A program made the translations under genes and the position numbers. From a virus, in the IMG/VR virus record IMGVR_UViG_3300036398_004368, positions 1 to 27,920 of that record: a stretch of DNA of 27,920 nt; one strand, 5' to 3'. Positions 1,139 through 16,886 of this stretch are shown here, in pieces (the stretch's first letter is position 1; each line of letters begins with the position of its first letter). A model generated the notes under the pieces. The model was not told the origin of the DNA. It saw only the letters and a list, made by a program, of their open reading frames with translations, and did no database searches.

Positions 1139-1804
1139 ATGGCTTTCAAGGACGACCTCACCACGCTGGACCAGATTGGTGCCGAAACGCTTGCCGAGTA
1201 CGAGCGCCGTGCCGGGATTTCCGCTCAAACGCTGCTGAGCGAAATTCGACGCGACCGCGTGCGGATTCCACCAAGCGAATCCTCGCGTTTGCCTAATTCT
1301 CTCGCGTGTAACGATCCGACCGTGGCGGCTATTGGTGATCTCCGTTTGCACGAGGAGACGCGAGCGTACAAAATGCTGCAGATCCTGGCTGAGTTTCGTG
1401 ATGGTCCGCCCGAGGCGCGATTCTCGATGCGGCACGCGTACACCACAGCGGGCGTACATCGTTCCACGATGATCCAATGGCGAAAGGACCACAAGTTGTT
1501 CGATTCGCTTATGGAAGCGGTCCAGGAGGAGATGATCGACACGCTGCGGGCTGAGGCTTACCGGCGTGCTGTGGTCGGACACGACGAGCCTCTGGTGCAT
1601 CAAGGCCTCAAGACGGGCGACACGGTGAAAAAGTATAGTGATGGGCTGCTGCAGTTCACGCTCATGGGCTACGATGCGAAATTCCGAGCGAAAGACGTTA
1701 ACATGAACGTCAGCGGATCGCTTGATTCCAACGTCAACATCGAGGGACTACGTGACCGGCTTGCACAGCGGCTTGAGCAGAGGGCAAAGGCGGAAAGCCA
1801 GTAA
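1139..1804 (+). CDS. terS: Terminase small subunit (DNA recognition)
   Basis: Predicted small terminase, which recognises the packaging site on phage DNA and recruits the large subunit. A helix-turn-helix-like segment (FSMRHAYTTAGVHRSTMIQW) is followed by an acidic/amphipathic helix (LFDSLMEAVQEEMIDTLRAEAYRRAV). Then comes a GHDEPLVHQG...KKYSDGLLQF motif that is common in phage small terminases, leading to a DAKFR sequence that often ends the oligomerisation domain. The open frame extends up to a TTG at 1037, but that would translate the leader hairpin. ATG 1139 (221 aa) is preferred, and ATG 1118 is possible. It overlaps the start of the large terminase gene, the usual terS-terL arrangement, which strengthens the call. 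Confidence 0.75.
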   Translation: MAFKDDLTTLDQIGAETLAEYERRAGISAQTLLSEIRRDRVRIPPSESSRLPNSLACNDPTVAAIGDLRLHEETRAYKMLQILAEFRDGPPEARFSMRHAYTTAGVHRSTMIQWRKDHKLFDSLMEAVQEEMIDTLRAEAYRRAVVGHDEPLVHQGLKTGDTVKKYSDGLLQFTLMGYDAKFRAKDVNMNVSGSLDSNVNIEGLRDRLAQRLEQRAKAESQ

Positions 1805-3185
1805 AGCTCGAAATCTCGTCGATCCGTCAAATCTGCGGGAGTTCATCGCGGAATTGTCGAACGAGGAGGCGATCGAGCTTTTCTACGATTGGCAGACCTG
1901 GGCACGCCCGAACCAGTTCGTACCACCCGGTGACATGTGGACGATCTGGCTAATCCTCGCGGGTCGCGGCTGGGGCAAAACGCGCTGCGGTGCTGAGTTC
2001 GTCCGGTTTCACGTGGAACGAGGCTTGGCGTCGCGCATCGCGCTAATCGCCGAGGACGCGGGTGACGCCCGGGACGTCATGATCGAGGGCGAGTCGGGCA
2101 TCTTGGCCATCTCGCACCCCAAGTGCAAGCCGGTGTTTGTCCCATCGAAACGCCGCATCGAGTGGCCCAATGGCGCGATCGCCACTATCTATTCGGACAA
2201 CGACCCCGAGACCCTGCGCGGACCCCAGCACGATTTGGCCTGGGTCGACGAGCTTGCGAAATTCCGCAACGTTGAGGACATGTGGTCGAACCTTATGTTC
2301 GGCCTGCGCCTGGGGCAAAGGCCCAGGGTTTGCATTACGACTACGCCCAAGCCGATCCCCATCGTCCGTCGGCTGCTCGACGACGACCGCGTACTGGTTA
2401 CCACTGGCACGACCCACGAGAATTTCAACAACCTCGCGCCGACTTTCCGCGACGAAATCATCTCGCAGTACGAGGGCACGCGGCTGGGTCGCCAGGAGCT
2501 TTACGCTGAGGTGATCGACCCCGAGGACTATGGCATCGTCAAGCGCGATTGGTTCCGACTATGGGATGCCGATCGTCCATTGCCGGAGTTTATTTATATT
2601 TTGCAGTCCTACGACTGCGCCTACACCGAAAAGACTATCAACGATCCGACCGCGTGCAGCGTTTGGGGTATCTTCAAGCCCAGCGACGACCGCCCCATGT
2701 GCGCGATGCTCATCGACTGCTGGGAGGACTTTTTGGCTTACCCGGACTTGCGCCCCAAGGTCATCGACGAGTTCAAATCGGTCTACGGCGAACCCGGCAA
2801 GAAGACGGATTTGGTGCTGGTCGAGGACAAGGCTTCGGGCATCAGCATCTTGCAGGATTTGCAGCGGGCTGGGGTGCCGTGCCGCGCCTACAACCCAGGC
2901 AAGGCCGACAAGGTACAGCGACTGCATTTGGTGGCCAACATCATCATGCATGGCCGCGTTTACATCCCCGAGTCCACCGTGCACCCGGGCGAGCCTCGCG
3001 ATTGGGCCGAGCCGCTGGTAAGCCAGATTTGCTCGTTTCCCGAGGCCGAGCGCGATGACCTGACCGATACGACCACGCAAGCGCTGCGGCTGCTGCGCGA
3101 CATGGGTTTCCTCAATTTCGACCCTGTACCGGAGGAAGAGTACGACGAGGACAGGGGCAAGCGGGCAAACCCGTACGCGCAGTAA
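1752..3185 (+). CDS. terL: Terminase large subunit (ATPase and nuclease)
   Basis: Motor that pumps DNA into the procapsid through the portal and cuts the concatemer. Counting from GTG 1752 (477 aa), the Walker A motif LAGRGWGKT is at residues 69-77 and the Walker B LAWVDE is at about 162-167, with the catalytic Glu following the Asp. The C-terminal RNase H-like nuclease shows acidic residues in SYDCAY (D288), LVEDKASG (E358/D359) and DDLTD (435-439). The start is uncertain: no ATG precedes the ATPase domain. TTG 1722, GTG 1752 (preceded by GAGGGA four bases upstream), TTG 1761 and TTG 1770 are all in frame, and all overlap terS. A parS-like 14-mer lies inside the gene at 2006-2019, coding for FHVE. 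Confidence 0.95.
   Translation: MTGLHSGLSRGQRRKASKARNLVDPSNLREFIAELSNEEAIELFYDWQTWARPNQFVPPGDMWTIWLILAGRGWGKTRCGAEFVRFHVERGLASRIALIAEDAGDARDVMIEGESGILAISHPKCKPVFVPSKRRIEWPNGAIATIYSDNDPETLRGPQHDLAWVDELAKFRNVEDMWSNLMFGLRLGQRPRVCITTTPKPIPIVRRLLDDDRVLVTTGTTHENFNNLAPTFRDEIISQYEGTRLGRQELYAEVIDPEDYGIVKRDWFRLWDADRPLPEFIYILQSYDCAYTEKTINDPTACSVWGIFKPSDDRPMCAMLIDCWEDFLAYPDLRPKVIDEFKSVYGEPGKKTDLVLVEDKASGISILQDLQRAGVPCRAYNPGKADKVQRLHLVANIIMHGRVYIPESTVHPGEPRDWAEPLVSQICSFPEAERDDLTDTTTQALRLLRDMGFLNFDPVPEEEYDEDRGKRANPYAQ
2006..2019 (+). promoter_or_regulatory. parS-like site GTTTCACGTGGAAC (in terL)
   Basis: The 14-mer GTTTCACGTGGAAC is the reverse complement of GTTCCACGTGAAAC, a well-known natural variant of the bacterial centromere core parS recognised by chromosomal ParB proteins. 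It lies in the terminase ATPase region, covering the codons for FHVE. A second, fully palindromic copy lies 1.37 kb downstream. The sequence match is exact. Binding is inferred. Confidence 0.5.
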
Positions 3186-3197
3186 GGAATTACGACT

Positions 3198-4934
3198 ATG
3201 GCCGGTGCACTTGAAGACCTCGCAAAAACGCTGGACCTGCAGCCCGCTGATATACTGTCGGCATTTACTGGTCTTCGCGCAGCGGTACCGATTTACATGG
3301 GGCTGGGTGCCACCGGGCTCAATGCAGGCGAGGACGAGCAATTGCGCCGCATTTATGGCCCGCTGCCTCCGACGCCCGTTTCACGTGAAACGCCCGAGAT
3401 GGCACAGCGGCGCATGGTCGAGGAGTTCGAGCAGCGTTTCCCCACACCCGAGCTTCGTCGTGCGGTGATCGAGCAGATGCGGGCCAATCGGCGCGAAGGC
3501 AGGTTCGACCCCAGCACTGCTACGCGGCGTGCGGATTTTGCACCCCATGCGCAGCCCGAGTACAAGGGTCCGGTGGCGACGCCATCGATCGGGAAGCGGA
3601 AATTCCAGGCCGGTGGCAAGGTGGCTAAATCCGCGATGCAGAAAGCGCGAGATGTCGCAGCCGCTGAGTTGTGGCATGGCGGCAATTACCGCAGAGGCGA
3701 GACGATCAATCGACCGCTGTATATGACGCCGATTCGCGAGATGGCAGAGTCCTATGTCGATGTAAAGGGAGTGCCGGATGCTACATTGCAGCAGCTCAAG
3801 CCTCAGGTATCGCGACCTGCGCCTGAGCGTTTGGTGCGGGCGGCTTCGCGCCGATATGTGCCCGACAATGAGAGATTAGGCTATACACCAGCATCAGCGT
3901 TCGACGAGAATCTGCATGATCCGGAGCAGATTGCGGAGATGATTCGCGAATTGCAGCGGCGAGGATACGACAGCGCGGTAGCCCGTGATGTCGGAATGCG
4001 CCAGGGCATGTTTTTTGGCGCACCCGTGGGTGACGCGCTTGTGGTGTTTCCTGGCAATAAGGCTTATCAGGCCGGTGGTCGCGTCAAGAAGACCGCGCAG
4101 CAAATGGCGGACGAAATGCTCGTGCGGGGCACCAAGACCGCGCAAAGAGAACCGGTGAACCTGTCGCGCCGTGGCTTTTTCGGTTTGCCCGAGTCCAAAT
4201 CGATGCCGCTGGCCAAGATCGACGACACGACACTGGACAAGCTCGAAAAGAAATACGCGAGGGAGGGTCAAGCCCCGGCGCTTACCGAGCGGACCACGAC
4301 GGTATCGCCCGATGCAGGCAAGACACAATCGACTTTGCGGTCAATCGTCGAAACGCCCATGTCGCGTCGCACACTGCTCCAGGCCGCAGGGTCGCAAGCT
4401 GTGCAGAGTATGCTGCCCGCAGGCGCATTGCCAGTGCCTAGCGTCAGCAATTTGGTCAAGCCTGTGGTGCAGGCTGCTACCGCCGCACCTTCGCCGCTAA
4501 GCATGATGGGAGCGATAGCGAAAGCTGTGGAGGCAGGACTCAGTGAGCGCCAAGCTGTGGCGGCTGTGCGAAGTATGTTCCCGAAGGCCGATCGGTACGA
4601 AATCGAAGACTCATTTCAAATGCTGTCCGACCCGTATGTGAATTCGACGATCGAACCCGGTGATCTGCAAAGACCTATTGAGACGATGCGCAACCTAATA
4701 GCGCCAAATTTACCCAGCGATGCGAGTCCCTTTGCATTGCGTTCTGCCATGCGAGAGGTCAAGCGCGAAGCACCGTTAACTTATAGTGGTGCGAAAGGAT
4801 TTGCCAAAGACGTTTGGGATGACGAGATCGAGACGTTGTTTGAACGTGGGTATATTAAATCCGACGATGAACTAAGACGGCTGCGCATGGGTGACGAGTC
4901 GATTTACGACTTGATGTACGATCGCGGTCGATAA
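3198..4934 (+). CDS. Virion-associated protein with ADP-ribosyltransferase-like domain
   Basis: A 578-residue protein between terminase and portal. Residues 157-288 resemble phage polyvalent-protein ADP-ribosyltransferase domains: ELWHGG (candidate NAD-contacting His), RGETINRPLYMTP (the strand with the conserved aromatic), REMAESYVD, then a late ELQRRGYDSAVARD...DALVVFPGNK strand pair. Two near-identical QAGG(K/R)V linkers flank this domain (137-142 and 291-296), each followed by a basic KxAxQKARD/KKTAQQMAD helix. Two twin-arginine-like strings are internal, SRRGFF (323-328) and SRRTLL (389-394), the second followed by an Ala-rich stretch. The rest is unrecognised. If real, the domain would transfer ADP-ribose from NAD to a host or virion target, and proteins at this locus are often injected. 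The third catalytic residue is not clear, so activity is uncertain. Confidence 0.6.
   Translation: MAGALEDLAKTLDLQPADILSAFTGLRAAVPIYMGLGATGLNAGEDEQLRRIYGPLPPTPVSRETPEMAQRRMVEEFEQRFPTPELRRAVIEQMRANRREGRFDPSTATRRADFAPHAQPEYKGPVATPSIGKRKFQAGGKVAKSAMQKARDVAAAELWHGGNYRRGETINRPLYMTPIREMAESYVDVKGVPDATLQQLKPQVSRPAPERLVRAASRRYVPDNERLGYTPASAFDENLHDPEQIAEMIRELQRRGYDSAVARDVGMRQGMFFGAPVGDALVVFPGNKAYQAGGRVKKTAQQMADEMLVRGTKTAQREPVNLSRRGFFGLPESKSMPLAKIDDTTLDKLEKKYAREGQAPALTERTTTVSPDAGKTQSTLRSIVETPMSRRTLLQAAGSQAVQSMLPAGALPVPSVSNLVKPVVQAATAAPSPLSMMGAIAKAVEAGLSERQAVAAVRSMFPKADRYEIEDSFQMLSDPYVNSTIEPGDLQRPIETMRNLIAPNLPSDASPFALRSAMREVKREAPLTYSGAKGFAKDVWDDEIETLFERGYIKSDDELRRLRMGDESIYDLMYDRGR
3378..3391 (+). promoter_or_regulatory. 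parS-like site GTTTCACGTGAAAC (perfect palindrome)
   Basis: GTTTCACGTGAAAC is identical to the universal parS core bound by ParB/Spo0J. The palindrome extends by one flanking C/G pair to 16 bases (3377-3392), where the usual flank is T/A. It sits in coding sequence for residues V61-T65 (VSRET) of the ADP-ribosyltransferase-like gene. No ParB gene is visible in this window. Whether the host ParB binds is inference. Confidence 0.55.
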
Positions 4935-4945
4935 CGAAAGTGATT

Positions 4946-7459
4946 ATGGCCACTGAATTCCCACAACCGCAAACCGAACTACCCGAGGGACCTGAGGATC
5001 AGGAGGGCATTCTGTTCGACCTGGACGACGAATTCGCGGAGGTCGAGGAGCAGCCCGATGGCTCGGCTATTGTGCGAATGGACGAGTTCAAGGGTCCGAT
5101 GGAGGACGACGATTTTTATTCGAATCTAGCCGAGAAGATCGACGGCTACAAGCTCGGGAAAATCTCGCTCAAGTATCTGGAACTAATCGAAAAGGACCGG
5201 GAGGCGCGTAAAGATCGAGACAAGAAGTACGAAGAGGGTCTCAAGCGCACGGGTCTGGGCAACGACGCGCCCGGTGGTGCTAATTTCCAGGGTGCATCGA
5301 AGGTGGTGCATCCGATCATGGCCGAGGCCTGCATTGATTTCGAGTCGCGGGCGATCAAAGAGCTATTTCCACCAGATGGTCCAGTGCGCACGAAAGTGCT
5401 GGGCAAGCAGGAGGAAGAGGCGACGCTTCGGGCCGAACGCAAGCGCGACTGGATGAATTGGCAGTTGACCGAGCAGATCGAGGAGTTCCGCGACGAGCAG
5501 GAGCAATTGCTTACCCAACTGCCGCTCGGAGGGTCGCAGTACCTCAAGCTCTGGTACGACGAGCGCAAGAAACGGCCATGCGCCGAGTTCATCCCGGTGG
5601 ACAACATACTGCTGCCATTCGCAGCGACGTCGTTTTATACCGCGCAGCGCGCCACTGAACAGCAGGACATCACTGCCGAGGAATTCGAGGATCGCGTAGG
5701 GTCGGGCTTGTATATCGACGTCGATATCGGGATCGCGGCGATGGAACCCGAGCCGACTGCATCGCAGAAGGCGAACAACAAGATCGAAGGTAAAACGTTC
5801 GAAGAGAATCAAGACGGGTTGCGCCGAGTGTACCATAGCTATGTGAACATGGCTCTGGAGGACGACGCCCGTACCGATGGCGAGGTCGCGCCCTACATTT
5901 TGATGATCGACGAATTGACCGGTGAGGTCGTCGGGCTGTATCGCAATTGGGAAGAGGGTGACGAAAGCCGTGCGAAACTCGAATGGGTGGTCGAATTCAA
6001 GTTCATCCCATGGCGTGGAGCCTACGCGATTGGTCTGCCGCACCTCATCGGCGGTCTTTCGGCGGCTCTCACCGGCTCCCTGCGTGCTCTTCTGGATTCG
6101 GCGCATATCAACAATGCTGCCACAATGCTCAAGCTCAAGGGTGCGAAGATTTCGGGGCAATCCCAGCAGGTTGAAGTGACTCAGGTGGCCGAAATCGAGG
6201 GTGCTCCAGGGGTCGACGACGTGCGCAAGATCGCTATGCCGATGCCCTTTAATCCGCCATCGCCGGTACTTTTCCAGCTTCTGGGGTGGTTGACGAGTGC
6301 AGCCAAGGGTGTCGTGACCACGAGCGAGGAGAAAATCGCGGACGTGACGTCCAATTCCCCCGTCGGGACCACTCAAGCGCTCATCGAGCAGGGTGCAGCG
6401 GTATTTTCCGCTATTCATGCGCGACTTCATGCATCCCAATCGCGTGTTCTGAAGATCCTTCAGCGCATCAACCGCTGGTACTTGGACGACATGTCCAAGG
6501 GCGACATCGTGCAGGAACTGCCGATCAAGCGCGAGGATTTCAATCGAAGCACCGACGTGATCCCGGTGAGCGACCCTCACATATTCTCGGAGACTCAGCG
6601 TTTTGCGCAGAATCAGGCTGTGCTCGCTCTGATGGAGAAATTCCCGGATCAATTCGACCGCAGGGCTGTGCTGCAGCGGGTTATCAAGCAGATGAAGGTG
6701 CAAAACCCCACTGAATTGATGCCAGCGCTGGCGGAACCGGAGGAGCGAAACGCAGCGGACGAGAATGCGGCGATGGCGATTGGTCGCGCAGCATTTGCAT
6801 ACCCGCACCAGAACCAACTGGCGCATATTCAGGCGCATTTGGACTTCGCGCTGAACCCGATGTTGGGCTCTTTGCCTATCATCGCGCCGTCTTTCATGCC
6901 GATGTTTCTGGAGCATTTCAAGCAGCATCTGATTCTCTGGTATCTGGGCCACATGAACGGCTATGTCGAGCAGTCGTTGGGCAAGAAGATCGAGGATTAC
7001 GACATCCCAGGGATCACCGGAGATATCGACAAGCTATTCGCGGTGGCATCGCAGCACACTGATATCGACACGAAGGAAGCGTTCGAGAAGGTCGCACCAG
7101 CACTTCAAAAGCTCATCGAGGTCGCTCGGAAGTTCAAGCCCGAGCCCAAAATGGATGGAGCCGATTCAGTTATCCTCAAGACGTCGATGGCGGAGACCGA
7201 GAGGCGTGCGGCCAAAGACAAGATGGACGCGGAACACGCCAAAGCGAAGCTTCAGGCCGACATGCTCGAAGAGAATCGCAAAATGCAGATTCAGATCGCC
7301 ACGAATGCGGCTGATAATCTGACTGACGAACGAATCAAGACTGCCGAACTGTCGAATGACGCTTCGCTCTTGAGAAATGAGCAGCAAAAAACTGCTATTG
7401 CCGCGCTGGAAAGCGCTCAACGAACCTTTGGAGAAGGAAATGGCTACATCGAACAGTGA
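4946..7459 (+). CDS. Portal protein
   Basis: Dodecameric portal, the channel at the unique capsid vertex through which terminase packages DNA and to which adaptors attach. The 837-residue length, acidic N-terminus and long alpha-helical C-terminus fit the large portals of short-tailed phages. A recognisable core includes ANFQGASKVVHPIMAEAC, FPPDGPVR, VDNILLPFAATSFYTAQR, SPVGTTQALIEQGAAVFSAI and HLILWYLGHMNGYVEQSLG. The last 120 residues are charged, Ala/Lys/Glu-rich helix (ERRAAKDKMDAEHAKAKLQ), likely the barrel that projects into the head. ATG 4946 is preferred over the in-frame GTG 4940. It lies 12 bases after the upstream stop. The 3' end overlaps the next small gene by 20 bases. Confidence 0.9.
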   Translation: MATEFPQPQTELPEGPEDQEGILFDLDDEFAEVEEQPDGSAIVRMDEFKGPMEDDDFYSNLAEKIDGYKLGKISLKYLELIEKDREARKDRDKKYEEGLKRTGLGNDAPGGANFQGASKVVHPIMAEACIDFESRAIKELFPPDGPVRTKVLGKQEEEATLRAERKRDWMNWQLTEQIEEFRDEQEQLLTQLPLGGSQYLKLWYDERKKRPCAEFIPVDNILLPFAATSFYTAQRATEQQDITAEEFEDRVGSGLYIDVDIGIAAMEPEPTASQKANNKIEGKTFEENQDGLRRVYHSYVNMALEDDARTDGEVAPYILMIDELTGEVVGLYRNWEEGDESRAKLEWVVEFKFIPWRGAYAIGLPHLIGGLSAALTGSLRALLDSAHINNAATMLKLKGAKISGQSQQVEVTQVAEIEGAPGVDDVRKIAMPMPFNPPSPVLFQLLGWLTSAAKGVVTTSEEKIADVTSNSPVGTTQALIEQGAAVFSAIHARLHASQSRVLKILQRINRWYLDDMSKGDIVQELPIKREDFNRSTDVIPVSDPHIFSETQRFAQNQAVLALMEKFPDQFDRRAVLQRVIKQMKVQNPTELMPALAEPEERNAADENAAMAIGRAAFAYPHQNQLAHIQAHLDFALNPMLGSLPIIAPSFMPMFLEHFKQHLILWYLGHMNGYVEQSLGKKIEDYDIPGITGDIDKLFAVASQHTDIDTKEAFEKVAPALQKLIEVARKFKPEPKMDGADSVILKTSMAETERRAAKDKMDAEHAKAKLQADMLEENRKMQIQIATNAADNLTDERIKTAELSNDASLLRNEQQKTAIAALESAQRTFGEGNGYIEQ

Positions 7460-10388: not shown

Positions 10389-11303
10389 ATGGCTGCTCCG
10401 ATGAGAAGTACAGACTTTCGTTCGATCGTTGAACCGATTCTGAACGAATGTTTTGATGGTGTGTACGAGCAACGCAAGGATGAATGGTCTCGCGTTTTCC
10501 GCGAAGAGAACGGCATCCCGCGTAACTACCACGAAGAACCCGTCCTGTATGGGTTTGGTGCCGCTCCCCAACTGCCTGATGGCACTCCGGTGACTTATCA
10601 GCAGGGCGGTGTGCTGTTCCTCAAGCGCTACGTTTACAACGTGTACGGTCTGGCCTTCGCGCTGACCAAAGTGTTGGTGGAAGACGGCGATCATATTCGT
10701 ATTGGTCAGGTGTACGCCAAGCACTTGGCGCAATCCATGATCGAGACCAAGGAAACGCTGTCGGCCAACGTGCTGAACCGCGCTTTCAACGCCTCGTATC
10801 CTGGCGGCGACGGTGTGCAGCTTAACAGCGCTTCGCACCCGATCGTCAACGGTACTTTCAGTAACCTGCTGAGCACCGCAGCTAACCTGTCGCAGACTTC
10901 GCTTGAGCAAATGCTCATTCAGATCCGTCAGGCTGTGGACAACAACGGCAAGAAGATTCGTCTGGTGCCCCGCCAACTGGTGGTCGCTCCTGGCAACGTC
11001 TTCCAGGCCGAAGTGCTGCTCAAATCGGTGCTGCGTGCTGGTACGGCTAACAACGACATCAACCCCGTCAAGTCTATTGGCTTGCTGGATGAGGGTGCCG
11101 CTGTTCTGTCCCGTCTGACCAACGCCAATGCATGGTGGGTTCAGACCGACGCTCCCGAGGGTATGAAGCTGATGATGCGTCGCGCTATGGAGAAGACCAT
11201 GGAAGGCGATTTCGAAACTGACTCGATGCGCTACAAGGCCACCGAGCGTTACGACGTTGGCTTCACTGATCCTCGTGCGATGTACGGTACTCCCGGCGTC
11301 TAA
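10389..11303 (+). CDS. Major capsid protein (HK97 fold)
   Basis: The 304-residue predicted shell protein. Diagnostic stretches include the N-arm RSIVEPILNECFDGVYEQRKDEW, the E-loop-like segment EEPVLYGFGAAPQLPDG and the spine helix QVYAKHLAQSMIETKETLSANVLNRAFN. The A-domain carries NNGKKIRLVPRQLVVAPG and WWVQTDAPEGMKLMMRRAMEKTMEGDFETDSMRYKATERYDVGFTDPRAMYG. The last block, an acidic-aromatic DxxT/DSMRYKATERY followed by a DPR turn, is characteristic of this capsid group. No pro-domain or maturation protease is apparent, so the scaffold is probably released rather than cleaved from the shell. It is likely the most abundant product here and the client of the phage GroES. Confidence 0.92.
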   Translation: MAAPMRSTDFRSIVEPILNECFDGVYEQRKDEWSRVFREENGIPRNYHEEPVLYGFGAAPQLPDGTPVTYQQGGVLFLKRYVYNVYGLAFALTKVLVEDGDHIRIGQVYAKHLAQSMIETKETLSANVLNRAFNASYPGGDGVQLNSASHPIVNGTFSNLLSTAANLSQTSLEQMLIQIRQAVDNNGKKIRLVPRQLVVAPGNVFQAEVLLKSVLRAGTANNDINPVKSIGLLDEGAAVLSRLTNANAWWVQTDAPEGMKLMMRRAMEKTMEGDFETDSMRYKATERYDVGFTDPRAMYGTPGV

Positions 11304-11809: not shown

Positions 11810-12571
11810 ATGGGCCAATTTAAACCGATGGTGAAGATGCAGACCACTGAACCCAGTGTTGAGCTTAAACTCAAGACTGGTGGGTCCGCAACCCACAAGC
11901 GTGCGCAGAAGGAGGGAGCCCCTGTTCGTAAAATGGATGGTGGGGTTATGGGTGCTCTGGCTGGTCGCAGCCCGATTACGCCGCCTATGGGCAACCCCGC
12001 TGCTGCTCGTGCTATGGCCGCGAAGAAGATGATGCGTCGGCCCCCTGCGATGCCTCCTGCGCCTCCGATGCAGGCTATGCCTCCCATGAAAAAGGGTGGA
12101 GAGGTGGAAACTCCGGCTATGCATAAAGCCGAGATGGGTGCCATCAAGAAGGTGGACAAGAAACTCACGAAGCACGCCGCTTCCCCCGCGTCCAAGGCTC
12201 ACAAAGGCCTTAAGACCGGTGGTGTGATGAAGTCCACTAAGCCTGCCGAGTACAAGACCGGTGGTGTGGTGAATGGTCAAGCCGGGTTCAAGTCTGGTGG
12301 TATCATCAAGACTATGAATCGCAAAACCACGAAAGTGGTTGAAGCTCGACCCGACACCAATTCAGCTCCTACCGGCGATGTGAAACTTGGTAACGCTGGC
12401 GGCTACAAGAAGGGTGGTGCTGCAAAAAAGCATTTTGCTACGGGGGGCGCAGTTAACAACTCCGGCCATGCCGTAGCAATGCCAAAGAAAGCTCCGTCTA
12501 AACCTGTGGCGATTAGCCAGTTATCCGGCACGTTCAAACGTGGCGGCAGAGTTAAAAACGAAGAGTGTTGA
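11810..12571 (+). CDS. Basic low-complexity protein with repeated x-K-x-GG-x motif
   Basis: A 253-residue, Lys/Met/Pro/Gly-rich protein with a strong AAGGAGG site. A short motif, aromatic or Leu, then K/A/x, then GG plus a small or hydrophobic residue, recurs at least eight times: LKTGGSA, MKKGGEV, LKTGGVM, YKTGGVV, FKSGGII, YKKGGAA, FATGGAV, FKRGGRV. Between copies are Met/Pro/Ala-rich tracts (PPAMPPAPPMQAMPPM). No catalytic domain is visible. It is probably disordered, with spaced short linear motifs that may dock onto a repeated partner such as the capsid or DNA. Related QAGG(K/R)V motifs occur in the ADP-ribosyltransferase-like protein, and MKSGGVA occurs in the gene at 12898. The gene is followed by a terminator. 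Confidence 0.7.
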   Translation: MGQFKPMVKMQTTEPSVELKLKTGGSATHKRAQKEGAPVRKMDGGVMGALAGRSPITPPMGNPAAARAMAAKKMMRRPPAMPPAPPMQAMPPMKKGGEVETPAMHKAEMGAIKKVDKKLTKHAASPASKAHKGLKTGGVMKSTKPAEYKTGGVVNGQAGFKSGGIIKTMNRKTTKVVEARPDTNSAPTGDVKLGNAGGYKKGGAAKKHFATGGAVNNSGHAVAMPKKAPSKPVAISQLSGTFKRGGRVKNEEC

Positions 12572-12897: not shown

Positions 12898-13302
12898 ATG
12901 CCTGCGAAGTCGAAAGCTCAGTTCCGCCTGATGAAAGCGGCAGAGAACGACCCTAAGTTCAGCAGGAAGGTAGGCATCAAGCAGGACGTCGCCGCCGAAT
13001 ACACCTCTTCTAATAGGGGCAGGAAGGCCTACGGAAGCCTTCCGGAGCGCATGAAGAGCGGTGGTGTGGCCCTAAGTATCGGCAGGGGTGAGAAGATGCC
13101 TGTGGAACGCGGTGCGGGTTTGACAGCCAAGGGTCGTGCGAAGTATAATAAAGAGACCGGATCTAAACTGAAGGCACCACAGCCTCAAGGCGGAGCACGA
13201 CGAGATTCCTTTTGCGCCAGAATGGGTGCGGTCGCAGAAAAAAGCGAAAAGGGTAGTCGGTCTCGCGCGTCCATGAAGCGGTGGAATTGCCCCGGGTGGT
13301 GA
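12898..13302 (+). CDS. DUF3008-like plus DUF6321-like basic protein
   Basis: A 134-residue basic protein. The N-terminus (MPAKSKAQFRLMKAAENDPKFSRKVG...SNRGRKAYGSLPERM) matches the pattern of DUF3008, small proteins starting SKAQQ/RFM and ending in LPERV. The C-terminal half (GAGLTAKGRAKYNKETG, KLKAPQPQGGARRDSFCARMG, RSRASMKRWNC) matches DUF6321-like phage proteins, with conserved Phe-Cys-Ala-Arg-Met and a closing Trp-Asn-Cys. A MKSGGVA motif in between recalls the neighbouring GG-motif protein. The function of both families is unknown, and the two Cys positions could bind metal. The assignment is from memory of the patterns and needs a profile search. Confidence 0.6.
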   Translation: MPAKSKAQFRLMKAAENDPKFSRKVGIKQDVAAEYTSSNRGRKAYGSLPERMKSGGVALSIGRGEKMPVERGAGLTAKGRAKYNKETGSKLKAPQPQGGARRDSFCARMGAVAEKSEKGSRSRASMKRWNCPGW

Positions 13303-14732: not shown

Positions 14733-16886
14733 ATGCCGAACGTAACAATCACCCAACTACCTGCGGCTGGCCCGATTACCGGAACAGAGTCGGTACCAAT
14801 CGTTCAGAACGGTCAAACGGTTCGTGCTACGACTTCTGCTATCGCTAGCGCTCCGAATCAGCAACAGACTTTCCTCACTCTGGTACAAGAAACGACGTTA
14901 CCTAACAGTCGATATCTGTCTACAAGTACCGGTCTTGGCTTAGTTGATGGTGGCCCGCAAGCGTTTTATAGAATCACGCTTAATGGCGCGGCGGGCTCGT
15001 TGGAGCTTGCCGGCACCGGTATTATTGCTAAGACATCTGCCAGCGCGGTTACAAGCCGCAGTATTGCTGTCACCGGCGCAGGTTTGGCCATCTCCAATGG
15101 CGACGGCGTTGCAGGCAATCCCACGATCTCACTTGCTGGGCTGGCTGCAGCCATGGCGAACGTTGGTGGAACTGGGCTGCTGGCTTTTCAAAACGGGTCA
15201 ACTGCGGGCGGCGTGCTGATTGCTGGAACTGCAGATCAGATCTCTGTGGCCAACGGTAATGGCGCTGGTGGCAACCCAACGATCAGTTTCGCGCTCAATC
15301 CAATTTTGCCGGGAACCGAGGCGGTTACACTGCCGAAAGGGACCACAGCAGAACGTCCTGCTGGTAGTGATGGACAAATTCGTTTCAATACAGATACGAA
15401 TCAATATGAAGGCTACGTCAGCGGGCATTGGTCTAATGCCCTTGGTGCTTCCGGATTTTCCGGATTTTCTGGGTATTCAGGTTTTTCTGGATTAGGTCTT
15501 TCCGGGTACAGTGGTGAATCGGGGTTTTCTGGAATTTCGGGCTTTTCGGGCGAGTCTGGCTTCTCTGGAATTTCCGGCTTTTCTGGTATCTCGGGCTTTT
15601 CGGGCACATCTGGGTTTTCGGGAGTAAGTGGGTTTTCCGGGATTTCCGGCTTTTCTGGTGTCTCAGGTTTCAGTGGCGATTCTGGTTTTTCAGGTGTTTC
15701 CGGATTTTCCGGGTCTGGAATATCCGGATTTTCTGGAATATCTGGATTTTCTGGAATATCTGGATTTTCTGGAACGTCGGGTTTTTCCGGCATATCTGGA
15801 TTCTCAGGAATTTCTGGATTTAGCGGTATTTCCGGATTCTCCGGGGTGTCTGGATTTTCTGGAACGTCAGGTTTTTCCGGGAGTGGTATCTCCGGTTTTT
15901 CTGGAATCTCTGGGTTTAGCGGTATTTCCGGGTTTTCCGGAATCAGTGGTTTTTCTGGCATTTCCGGAATCAGTGGTTTTTCTGGCATTTCCGGTATTTC
16001 TGGGTTCAGCGGGTTTTCCGGAGAATCTGGATTCTCCGGTTCAGGGATAAGTGGCTTCTCTGGATCAGGAATAAGTGGTTTTTCAGGCACTTCTGGCTTT
16101 TCTGGTATTTCAGGCTTTTCAGGCACTTCAGGCTTTTCAGGCACTTCTGGCTTTTCTGGTATTTCAGGCTTTTCTGGCTTTTCTGGTATTTCAGGCTTTT
16201 CTGGTATTTCAGGCTTTTCTGGGATCTCTGGTTTTTCTGGATTTTCTGGATTTTCCGGATCGGGCATCAGCGGCTTTTCAGGCTTTTCAGGCAGATCTGG
16301 GTTCTCAGGCAGTGGCATCAGCGGCTTTTCAGGCTTTTCAGGCTTTTCAGGCTTTTCAGGCAGATCCGGGTTCTCAGGCAGTGGCATCAGCGGGTTCTCA
16401 GGGCGATCCGGCTTCTCTGGATCAGGGATAAGCGGATTTTCTGGCATTTCCGGTTTCTCGGGCCAGTCTGGATTTTCTGGATCAGGCGTCAGTGGTTTTT
16501 CTGGCTCCGGTCTTTCTGGGTTTTCAGGTACATCTGGTTTTTCTGGGTTTAGCGGCACTTCTGGATGGAGCGGATTTTCTGGCATTTCCGGTTTCTCGGG
16601 CCAGTCTGGATTTTCTGGATCAGGCGTCAGTGGTTTTTCTGGCTCCGGTCTTTCTGGGTTTTCAGGCACATCTGGTTTTTCTGGGTTTAGCGGCACTTCT
16701 GGATGGAGCGGATTTTCTGGAGCACCTCCCACAACAGTCACTGTTTCCACCAGCACAGCAACCACCGCGTATTTGACTTTTGTTACAGGCACAACAGGCA
16801 GTCAATCTGTGCTTGTCAATAGCGGCTTGACTTACAATGGAACGACAAACGCCATAACGGGCGGCGTTGCAGGAGGCGCGTTCTAA
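14733..16886 (+). CDS. Tail fibre/appendage with long proline-free collagen-like G-x-S repeat
   Basis: A 717-residue fibre. The N-terminal 240 residues hold a typical attachment head (ITQLPAAGPITGTESVPIVQNGQTVRATTS), beta segments with NGDGVAGNPTIS and NGNGAGGNPTIS repeats, and a trimer-entry motif (AERPAGSDGQIRFNTDTNQYEGYVSGHW) common before fibre shafts. Residues about 240-663 are almost only Gly-Phe-Ser and Gly-Ile/Thr/Val/Glu-Ser triplets, broken by short GSG steps. No proline is present, which is unusual for collagen-like sequence. The C-terminus is a short beta tip ending GGVAGGAF. The serines in every third position are candidate glycosylation sites. The stop overlaps the ATG of the glycosyltransferase gene. 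Confidence 0.85.
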   Translation: MPNVTITQLPAAGPITGTESVPIVQNGQTVRATTSAIASAPNQQQTFLTLVQETTLPNSRYLSTSTGLGLVDGGPQAFYRITLNGAAGSLELAGTGIIAKTSASAVTSRSIAVTGAGLAISNGDGVAGNPTISLAGLAAAMANVGGTGLLAFQNGSTAGGVLIAGTADQISVANGNGAGGNPTISFALNPILPGTEAVTLPKGTTAERPAGSDGQIRFNTDTNQYEGYVSGHWSNALGASGFSGFSGYSGFSGLGLSGYSGESGFSGISGFSGESGFSGISGFSGISGFSGTSGFSGVSGFSGISGFSGVSGFSGDSGFSGVSGFSGSGISGFSGISGFSGISGFSGTSGFSGISGFSGISGFSGISGFSGVSGFSGTSGFSGSGISGFSGISGFSGISGFSGISGFSGISGISGFSGISGISGFSGFSGESGFSGSGISGFSGSGISGFSGTSGFSGISGFSGTSGFSGTSGFSGISGFSGFSGISGFSGISGFSGISGFSGFSGFSGSGISGFSGFSGRSGFSGSGISGFSGFSGFSGFSGRSGFSGSGISGFSGRSGFSGSGISGFSGISGFSGQSGFSGSGVSGFSGSGLSGFSGTSGFSGFSGTSGWSGFSGISGFSGQSGFSGSGVSGFSGSGLSGFSGTSGFSGFSGTSGWSGFSGAPPTTVTVSTSTATTAYLTFVTGTTGSQSVLVNSGLTYNGTTNAITGGVAGGAF
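15450..16722 (+). repeat. Coding repeat tract for G-F-S/G-x-S triplets
   Basis: About 1.27 kb of imperfect 9- and 18-base units of the form GGN TTT TCN GGN ATT TCN. Third-base variation between units shows purifying selection for the protein pattern rather than recent simple slippage, except at the 3' end, where long near-identical blocks occur. The tract also leaves the opposite strand open (a Pro-Glu-Lys pseudo-frame), which is a by-product. Confidence 0.9.
16431..16706 (+). repeat. 138-bp tandem duplication inside the fibre repeat
   Basis: Block 16431-16568 is repeated at 16569-16706, each unit starting AGCGGATTTTCTGGCATTTC, with a partial third start at 16707. I see one mismatch (AGGTACATC versus AGGCACATC). 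The period of 138 bases is 46 codons, so the frame is kept. This points to a recent in-frame expansion of shaft length. Confidence 0.85.

Follow-up and report, generated by a model that had tools for sequence, protein, structure and literature searches.

The choice of proteins that a phage loads into its particle or injects is an open question beyond a few models such as T4. The T4 capsid targeting sequence is a short tag common to unrelated proteins that are loaded into the head and injected; it is located at the N terminus and is removed by the prohead protease. Basic internal head proteins are known from other phages. The C-terminal region of tape measures (Tape_meas_lam_C, then GG / SDSIPAxLSxGEFV) contains a heptad of the form [FY]A[NTK]GGx[VF], which in some of them is followed by GPGTGTSDSIPA..GEF. 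The ADP-ribosyltransferase Alt is delivered together with the DNA, and polyvalent proteins are multidomain cargo encoded between terminase and portal genes (Iyer, Burroughs, and Aravind, 2017; PMC5512222). Its main text uses none of the words linker, glycine, or packaging signal, and no GG motif was noticed there. A short mark on such proteins across many phages would offer a testable handle; it would help to find injected effectors from sequence alone and could serve to load chosen proteins into phage particles.

The DNA analyzed here (hereinafter referred to as the window) comprises 27,920 bases, the whole of IMG/VR virus record IMGVR_UViG_3300036398_004368, and is a genome fragment of an uncultured tailed phage. 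Genes were called as mechanical open reading frames (ORFs). Their order was small terminase, large terminase, the gene starting at 3198, portal, GroES-like, scaffold-like, capsid, a small gene, and the gene starting at 11810, followed by a small gene, a DUF6321 gene, an adaptor-like gene, and a collagen-like fibre gene. The features of the 11810 gene and two reference genes were as follows.

4940..7459, + strand: portal protein (phrog_1216), by PHROG match; some relatives have the motif at the portal C terminus
10389..11303, + strand: major capsid protein (Phage_capsid_4), marker for fetching related loci
11810..12571, + strand: GG-array protein, 253 aa, basic, mostly disordered as predicted; second gene 3' of the major capsid gene
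11810..11884, + strand: conserved N-terminal block MGQFKPMVKMxTTEPSVxLKLKxGG, ending in motif copy 1; from the alignment of relatives, with a diverged version in locus L210
11870..11890, + strand: motif copy 1, LKTGGSA
12086..12106, + strand: motif copy 2, MKKGGEV
12113..12178, + strand: sole confidently predicted helix, residues 102-123 (AlphaFold)
12209..12229, + strand: motif copy 3, LKTGGVM
12251..12271, + strand: motif copy 4, YKTGGVV
12287..12307, + strand: motif copy 5, FKSGGII
12404..12424, + strand: motif copy 6, YKKGGAA
12434..12454, + strand: motif copy 7, FATGGAV
12533..12553, + strand: motif copy 8, FKRGGRV
12566..12568, + strand: C-terminal Cys codon, invariant in a 13-sequence alignment

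The heptad in the 11810 product has the form [Y/F/M/L]-[K/A]-x-G-G-x-[V/A/I/M], and all eight copies reported by the initial annotation were confirmed in frame. The protein (P0001) has a net charge of +33 and a pI of 10.6 (37 Lys, 10 Arg, 4 Asp, and 10 Glu). Neither Pfam nor PHROG yielded a family match, and no tape-measure profile was detected. With the strict pattern [YFML][KA]xGGx[VAI], seven matches were observed, against a mean of 0.03 and a maximum of 2 in 20,000 composition shuffles; when GG was kept as a unit, the mean was 0.09 and the maximum 3 (20,000 shuffles). A frequency no higher than in shuffled basic sequence, which the initial annotation had named as grounds for abandoning its reading, was therefore not what was found, and the motif lay far above the shuffles. 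Codons differed between the motif copies and only three copies formed a recognisable DNA repeat, which places the constraint at the protein level. Third bases of Gly codons were as mixed in this gene as in the rest of its family, and since the shuffles never reached the observed count, the pattern is selected as protein sequence. The AlphaFold prediction (48 sequences) had a mean pLDDT of 54 with one good helix (residues 102-123), and the motif stretches mostly had a pLDDT of <50, consistent with their being disordered, although this is weak evidence because a thin alignment lowers confidence too.

A search by capsid homology retrieved 80 loci with capsid proteins 91-97% identical, and 67 ORFs grouped with the array protein, all of them beside homologous capsid genes. 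These homologues were 190 to 469 aa in length, contained 6-15 copies each under a loose motif definition, and kept the N-terminal block; the C-terminal Cys was present in 13 of the 13 that were fully aligned. The 67 array homologues had 509 motifs against 4.75 in shuffles, and homologues of the 3198 product had 76 against 3.55, counts that overstate the independent evidence because relatives share ancestry. Tyr, Met, Phe, or Leu was found at position -3, Lys or Ala at -2, and Val or Ala at +2, with Lys frequent at +3; positions -3 and +2 were tightly constrained, the former most strongly.

A homology search of named phages with the array protein found one true relative (MW202545), while matches to T4-like gp24 (E about 0.07) were treated as chance. 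BLAST with a synthetic motif string gave no matches, probably due to masking by BLAST. Caulobacter phage RW has a capsid protein 76% identical to that of the window and no array. The array protein was also absent from two sister capsid clades (B and C); clade C was nearly motif-free, and clade B encoded cargo proteins with the motif. A role of the array protein as sole receptor of tagged cargo is weakened, because clade B has tagged cargo in the absence of an array.

The gene between the terminase and portal genes encodes a cargo-type protein with the following features.

3198..4934, + strand: cargo-type protein with conserved N and C parts and an exchangeable middle; between the terminase and portal genes
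3603..3623, + strand: motif FQAGGKV, residue 136, left border of the exchangeable segment
3624..4064, + strand: exchangeable segment from alignments to relatives; ART-like by eye, no Pfam match
4065..4085, + strand: motif YQAGGRV, residue 290, right border of the exchangeable segment

Thus, the QAGGKV and QAGGRV flanks described earlier were present, at residues 136 and 290, whereas the ART-like domain proposed between them had no Pfam ART match and the segment resembled a confirmed ART-PolyVal domain only weakly and locally. The position of the gene and its homology to relatives fit a polyvalent protein, with effector domains confirmed in the relatives and not in the window copy. ART-PolyVal was confirmed in proteins at the homologous position of related phages, and LPD23 and ParB_N likewise in relatives, with the motifs falling outside the domain matches. 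Residues 5-164 and 273-539 of the 3198 product aligned with a 400-aa protein of locus L058, which therefore lacks most of the segment between the GG motifs. Further, the sister phages L008 and L009 were 93-96% identical at the DNA level in the shared parts of the 3198-type gene, and L008 had about 250-270 extra residues with GG motifs on either side, which illustrates cargo exchange in nature. The sequence KTVQQMAxELxTKG was partly duplicated at the junction of this insertion. A GG motif stood immediately before the conserved C-terminal part in the window and in L001, L008, L009, and L058.

The motif was also found downstream of the array gene.

12898..13302, + strand: small basic protein with an N-terminal MPAKSKAQ block, one GG motif, and a C-terminal DUF6321
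13051..13071, + strand: motif MKSGGVA, in the gene starting at 12898

The MKSGGVA previously read in this gene was present at 13051-13071. The gene thus combines DUF6321 with one GG motif and differs from the array protein, which lacks DUF6321. All three elements of the product resemble terminal tags. The MPAKSKAQ block was common to phrog_22033 and phrog_25121 (virion structural proteins), and DUF6321 was also found at the end of far longer phage proteins (phrog_3477 and phrog_10346).

Among conserved late genes near the capsid gene, strong enrichment was restricted to the array protein and the 3198 homologues. Single copies were detected in scaffold proteins (19/70), DUF6321 proteins (14/68), and a few portal C termini, and most other conserved families in this region were near zero. 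The capsid sequence YQQGGVL was excluded from the tags, being a single homologous site that is fixed in all 79 capsid proteins (79/79). In non-array proteins, 30 of 128 motif copies fell in the last tenth of the protein (p about 8e-6), and copies in the scanned polyvalent proteins avoided annotated domains. Some polyvalent-type proteins of other phages had no motif, and two plasmid-borne LPD23 proteins had at most one weak copy each; the GG motif was accordingly rejected as a general property of polyvalent proteins.

The whole-genome scan proposed in the initial annotation was performed on five nearly complete relatives and placed the motifs in the virion module and, far downstream of it, in a few further proteins. 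The copies outside the structural block belonged chiefly to large proteins, encoded 15-20 kb downstream, whose C termini resemble those of tape measures; the motif was absent from the recognisable replication genes of these five relatives. The large downstream proteins end FKxGGLA..YAxGGLN..GPGDGQSDDIPAMLADGEFV, a stretch that matched tape-measure profiles and is similar to the end of the tape measures mentioned above. A neighbour of the large protein, with C-terminal YKAGGLASIKPKKD, had a weak match to a DNA-ejection-protein profile (E 0.003). The AlphaFold model of the ejection-protein C terminus had a mean pLDDT of 51, too poor for interpretation. In L409-L488, the large ejection-type proteins had a highly conserved C-terminal GPGDGQSDDIPAMLADGEFVFPADVVAALGNGS..DLPPPAKKSPLDYLKK, which was partly common to tape measures; the one protein scanned matched no Pfam family there.

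Among isolates, phages of Vibrio, Pseudomonas, Curvibacter, Nitrincola, and Rhodococcus had [FY]A[NTK]GG in their annotated tape measures, and in some of these proteins SDSIPA..GEF accompanied the heptad. The array protein shares the heptad, in repeated form, with these tape measures, and has neither the SDSIPA/GEFV part nor a tape-measure domain. In Pelagibacter phage HTVC103P (L492, 26674-27969), an SDSIPA/GEFV stretch, otherwise seen in tape measures, was found in the product of a gene that immediately precedes the capsid gene, the position expected for the scaffold; another part of this protein had a weaker GG match. Pelagibacter phage HTVC027P and Planktothrix phage Pag-Yong1 are cultured relatives that have the motif. 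Viral contigs searched for relatives of the lambda tape measure gave two loci. The earlier claim of one motif common to non-homologous virion-type genes was thus supported well beyond the window, in relatives and isolates.

The breadth of the array was assessed using a DNA pattern for three nearby motif copies. This pattern had at least 120 matches in viral contigs, compared with 25 in bacterial and archaeal genomes totalling 257 Gb. Of these 25, L210 alone reads as a real array, and it is itself a phage contig from this lineage, with the diverged N-terminal block and a capsid gene of the lineage; the other matches read as tandem repeats or isolated matches and were rejected as arrays. Arrays are therefore essentially virus-specific. 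Among the viral matches listed, about 17 groups without mutual BLAST similarity were recognised by eye, among them tape measures, polyvalent-type proteins, and tiny proteins rich in Lys, although kinship among these last cannot be judged. Many of the 31 components among the matches listed were wrong-frame or chance, and only the components in which motif copies were readable were used. In other lineages, small arrays were found beside portal genes (L173, L178, and L179).

The heptad is conserved, lies in probably disordered stretches, and occurs in unrelated proteins, as short linear motifs do. A docking motif is the simplest account of a heptad that is probably disordered, sits in linkers and tails, is shared by unrelated proteins, and is limited to virion and delivered ones, and judged from sequence, a packaging tag or docking site would fit best. 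The occurrence of the tag in a probably disordered basic protein and in unrelated proteins of particle-carried, injected types suggests an address label for cargo loading and delivery. Our preferred reading, held tentatively and at somewhat less than an even chance, is that the heptad is a portable docking motif of virion proteins, above all those entering the host, with the 11810 product as a multivalent carrier. The likeness to the T4 capsid targeting sequence is that of a short tag on unrelated proteins, which here would be loaded into the head and injected. In contrast to an N-terminal tag paired with a prohead protease, the GG motif is internal, repeated, or C-terminal, has another sequence, and is accompanied by no recognised protease among the window proteins scanned.

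The motif is real, is conserved at the protein level, and occurs chiefly in proteins of the virion module and in delivered ones. On a low-confidence structure prediction, it would sit in flexible stretches. It may be bound by one shared site, in the interior of the head, on the portal, or in the tail channel, which would retain cargo during assembly, and, more speculatively, these weak contacts might release upon ejection of the contents. The 11810 product would be a late, intrinsically disordered protein, probably a basic internal head protein that makes many weak contacts simultaneously; the array would provide avidity, and single or paired copies would hold cargo. The motif borders the cargo segments of the 3198 gene, and ejection proteins and tape measures have it in their linkers or at their ends, as do, in some relatives, the tails of scaffold and portal proteins. 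A wider version seems doubtful, in which tailed phages widely use the heptad as a code for loading and delivery: one conserved receptor surface of the virion would recognise it in tape measures, ejection proteins, and effectors, cargo would become deliverable by gaining GG flanks, and multivalent arrays would tune the amount loaded. Against the docking reading itself, a single receptor is not obvious, because tape measures belong to the tail and the other motif proteins to the head; the lack of an array in phage RW and clades B and C and the polyvalent-type proteins devoid of the motif also count against it. A literature search for the motif, SDSIPA, or DUF6321 in phages, which covered neither subscription papers nor preprints and is for that reason weak evidence for novelty, found nothing relevant.

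Alternatively, the motif may be a processing signal at which a phage or host protease cuts at GG, freeing cargo domains or trimming internal proteins, on the model of T4 internal proteins or cleaved tape measures; we consider this unlikely, yet not negligible, because motif copies bound swappable cargo segments. LxGG, adenovirus-type, and double-glycine sites have a hydrophobic residue two places before GG, whereas in the phage motif the strongest hydrophobic position is three before and the residue two before is Lys or Ala, unlike LxGG or double-glycine (C39) sites. Since the spacing differs and no protease family was recognised among the window proteins scanned, the known GG-cutting types are disfavoured. 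In addition, cutting at 6-15 sites would reduce the array to short fragments. In both lambda and T5 the tape measure is cut in the course of assembly (PMC10038345; PMC3224144), in T5 after Arg and not at GG (PMC10038345); polyvalent proteins elsewhere have been described as processed (PMC5512222). Accordingly, the initial interpretation is supported in part, as regards a motif shared by non-homologous virion-type genes, and its protease-signal version has become less likely.

Another alternative is that the motifs are homotypic stickers, which bind each other through aromatic/Lys and backbone contacts and condense tagged proteins that are enclosed by the growing capsid, with no specific receptor. 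Such stickers agree with the aromatic residues or Met plus Lys by GG, with the many copies and the strongly positive charge, and with the probable disorder, but positions -3 and +2 are constrained beyond usual sticker needs and most carriers have only one to three copies, which makes this distinctly improbable. The charge and pI of the array protein would also suit a basic DNA-condensing internal protein, with the motif as a Lys/Gly-rich by-product and heptads elsewhere reflecting chance or linker preference. We regard this as very unlikely: shuffles that keep composition, and even GG, fail to make the motif, which also occurs in proteins other than Lys-rich arrays, such as tape measures, and motif arrays are absent from bacterial genomes. 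Finally, it is hardly credible that the motif is a chaperone handle mimicking the GG-hydrophobic mobile loop of GroES and recruiting GroEL to fold or hold virion proteins, since, although a Cpn10 gene in the module is conserved across the set and the SGGII and TGGVV copies are loop-like by eye, the mobile loops of GroES place their hydrophobics at +1 to +3 and lack one at -3, whereas the phage motif is strongest at -3 and prefers Lys at +3.

Elsewhere in the window, the large-terminase ORF (1722-3185, with TTG at 1722) overlapped the preceding ORF (1037-1804) by 83 bases, and its true start is probably later than this TTG. The collagen-like fibre (14733-16886) contained long GFSGxSGFSG repeats (Pfam Collagen, E 3e-47), and two glycosyltransferase genes, one of them a methyltransferase fusion, were located downstream of it.
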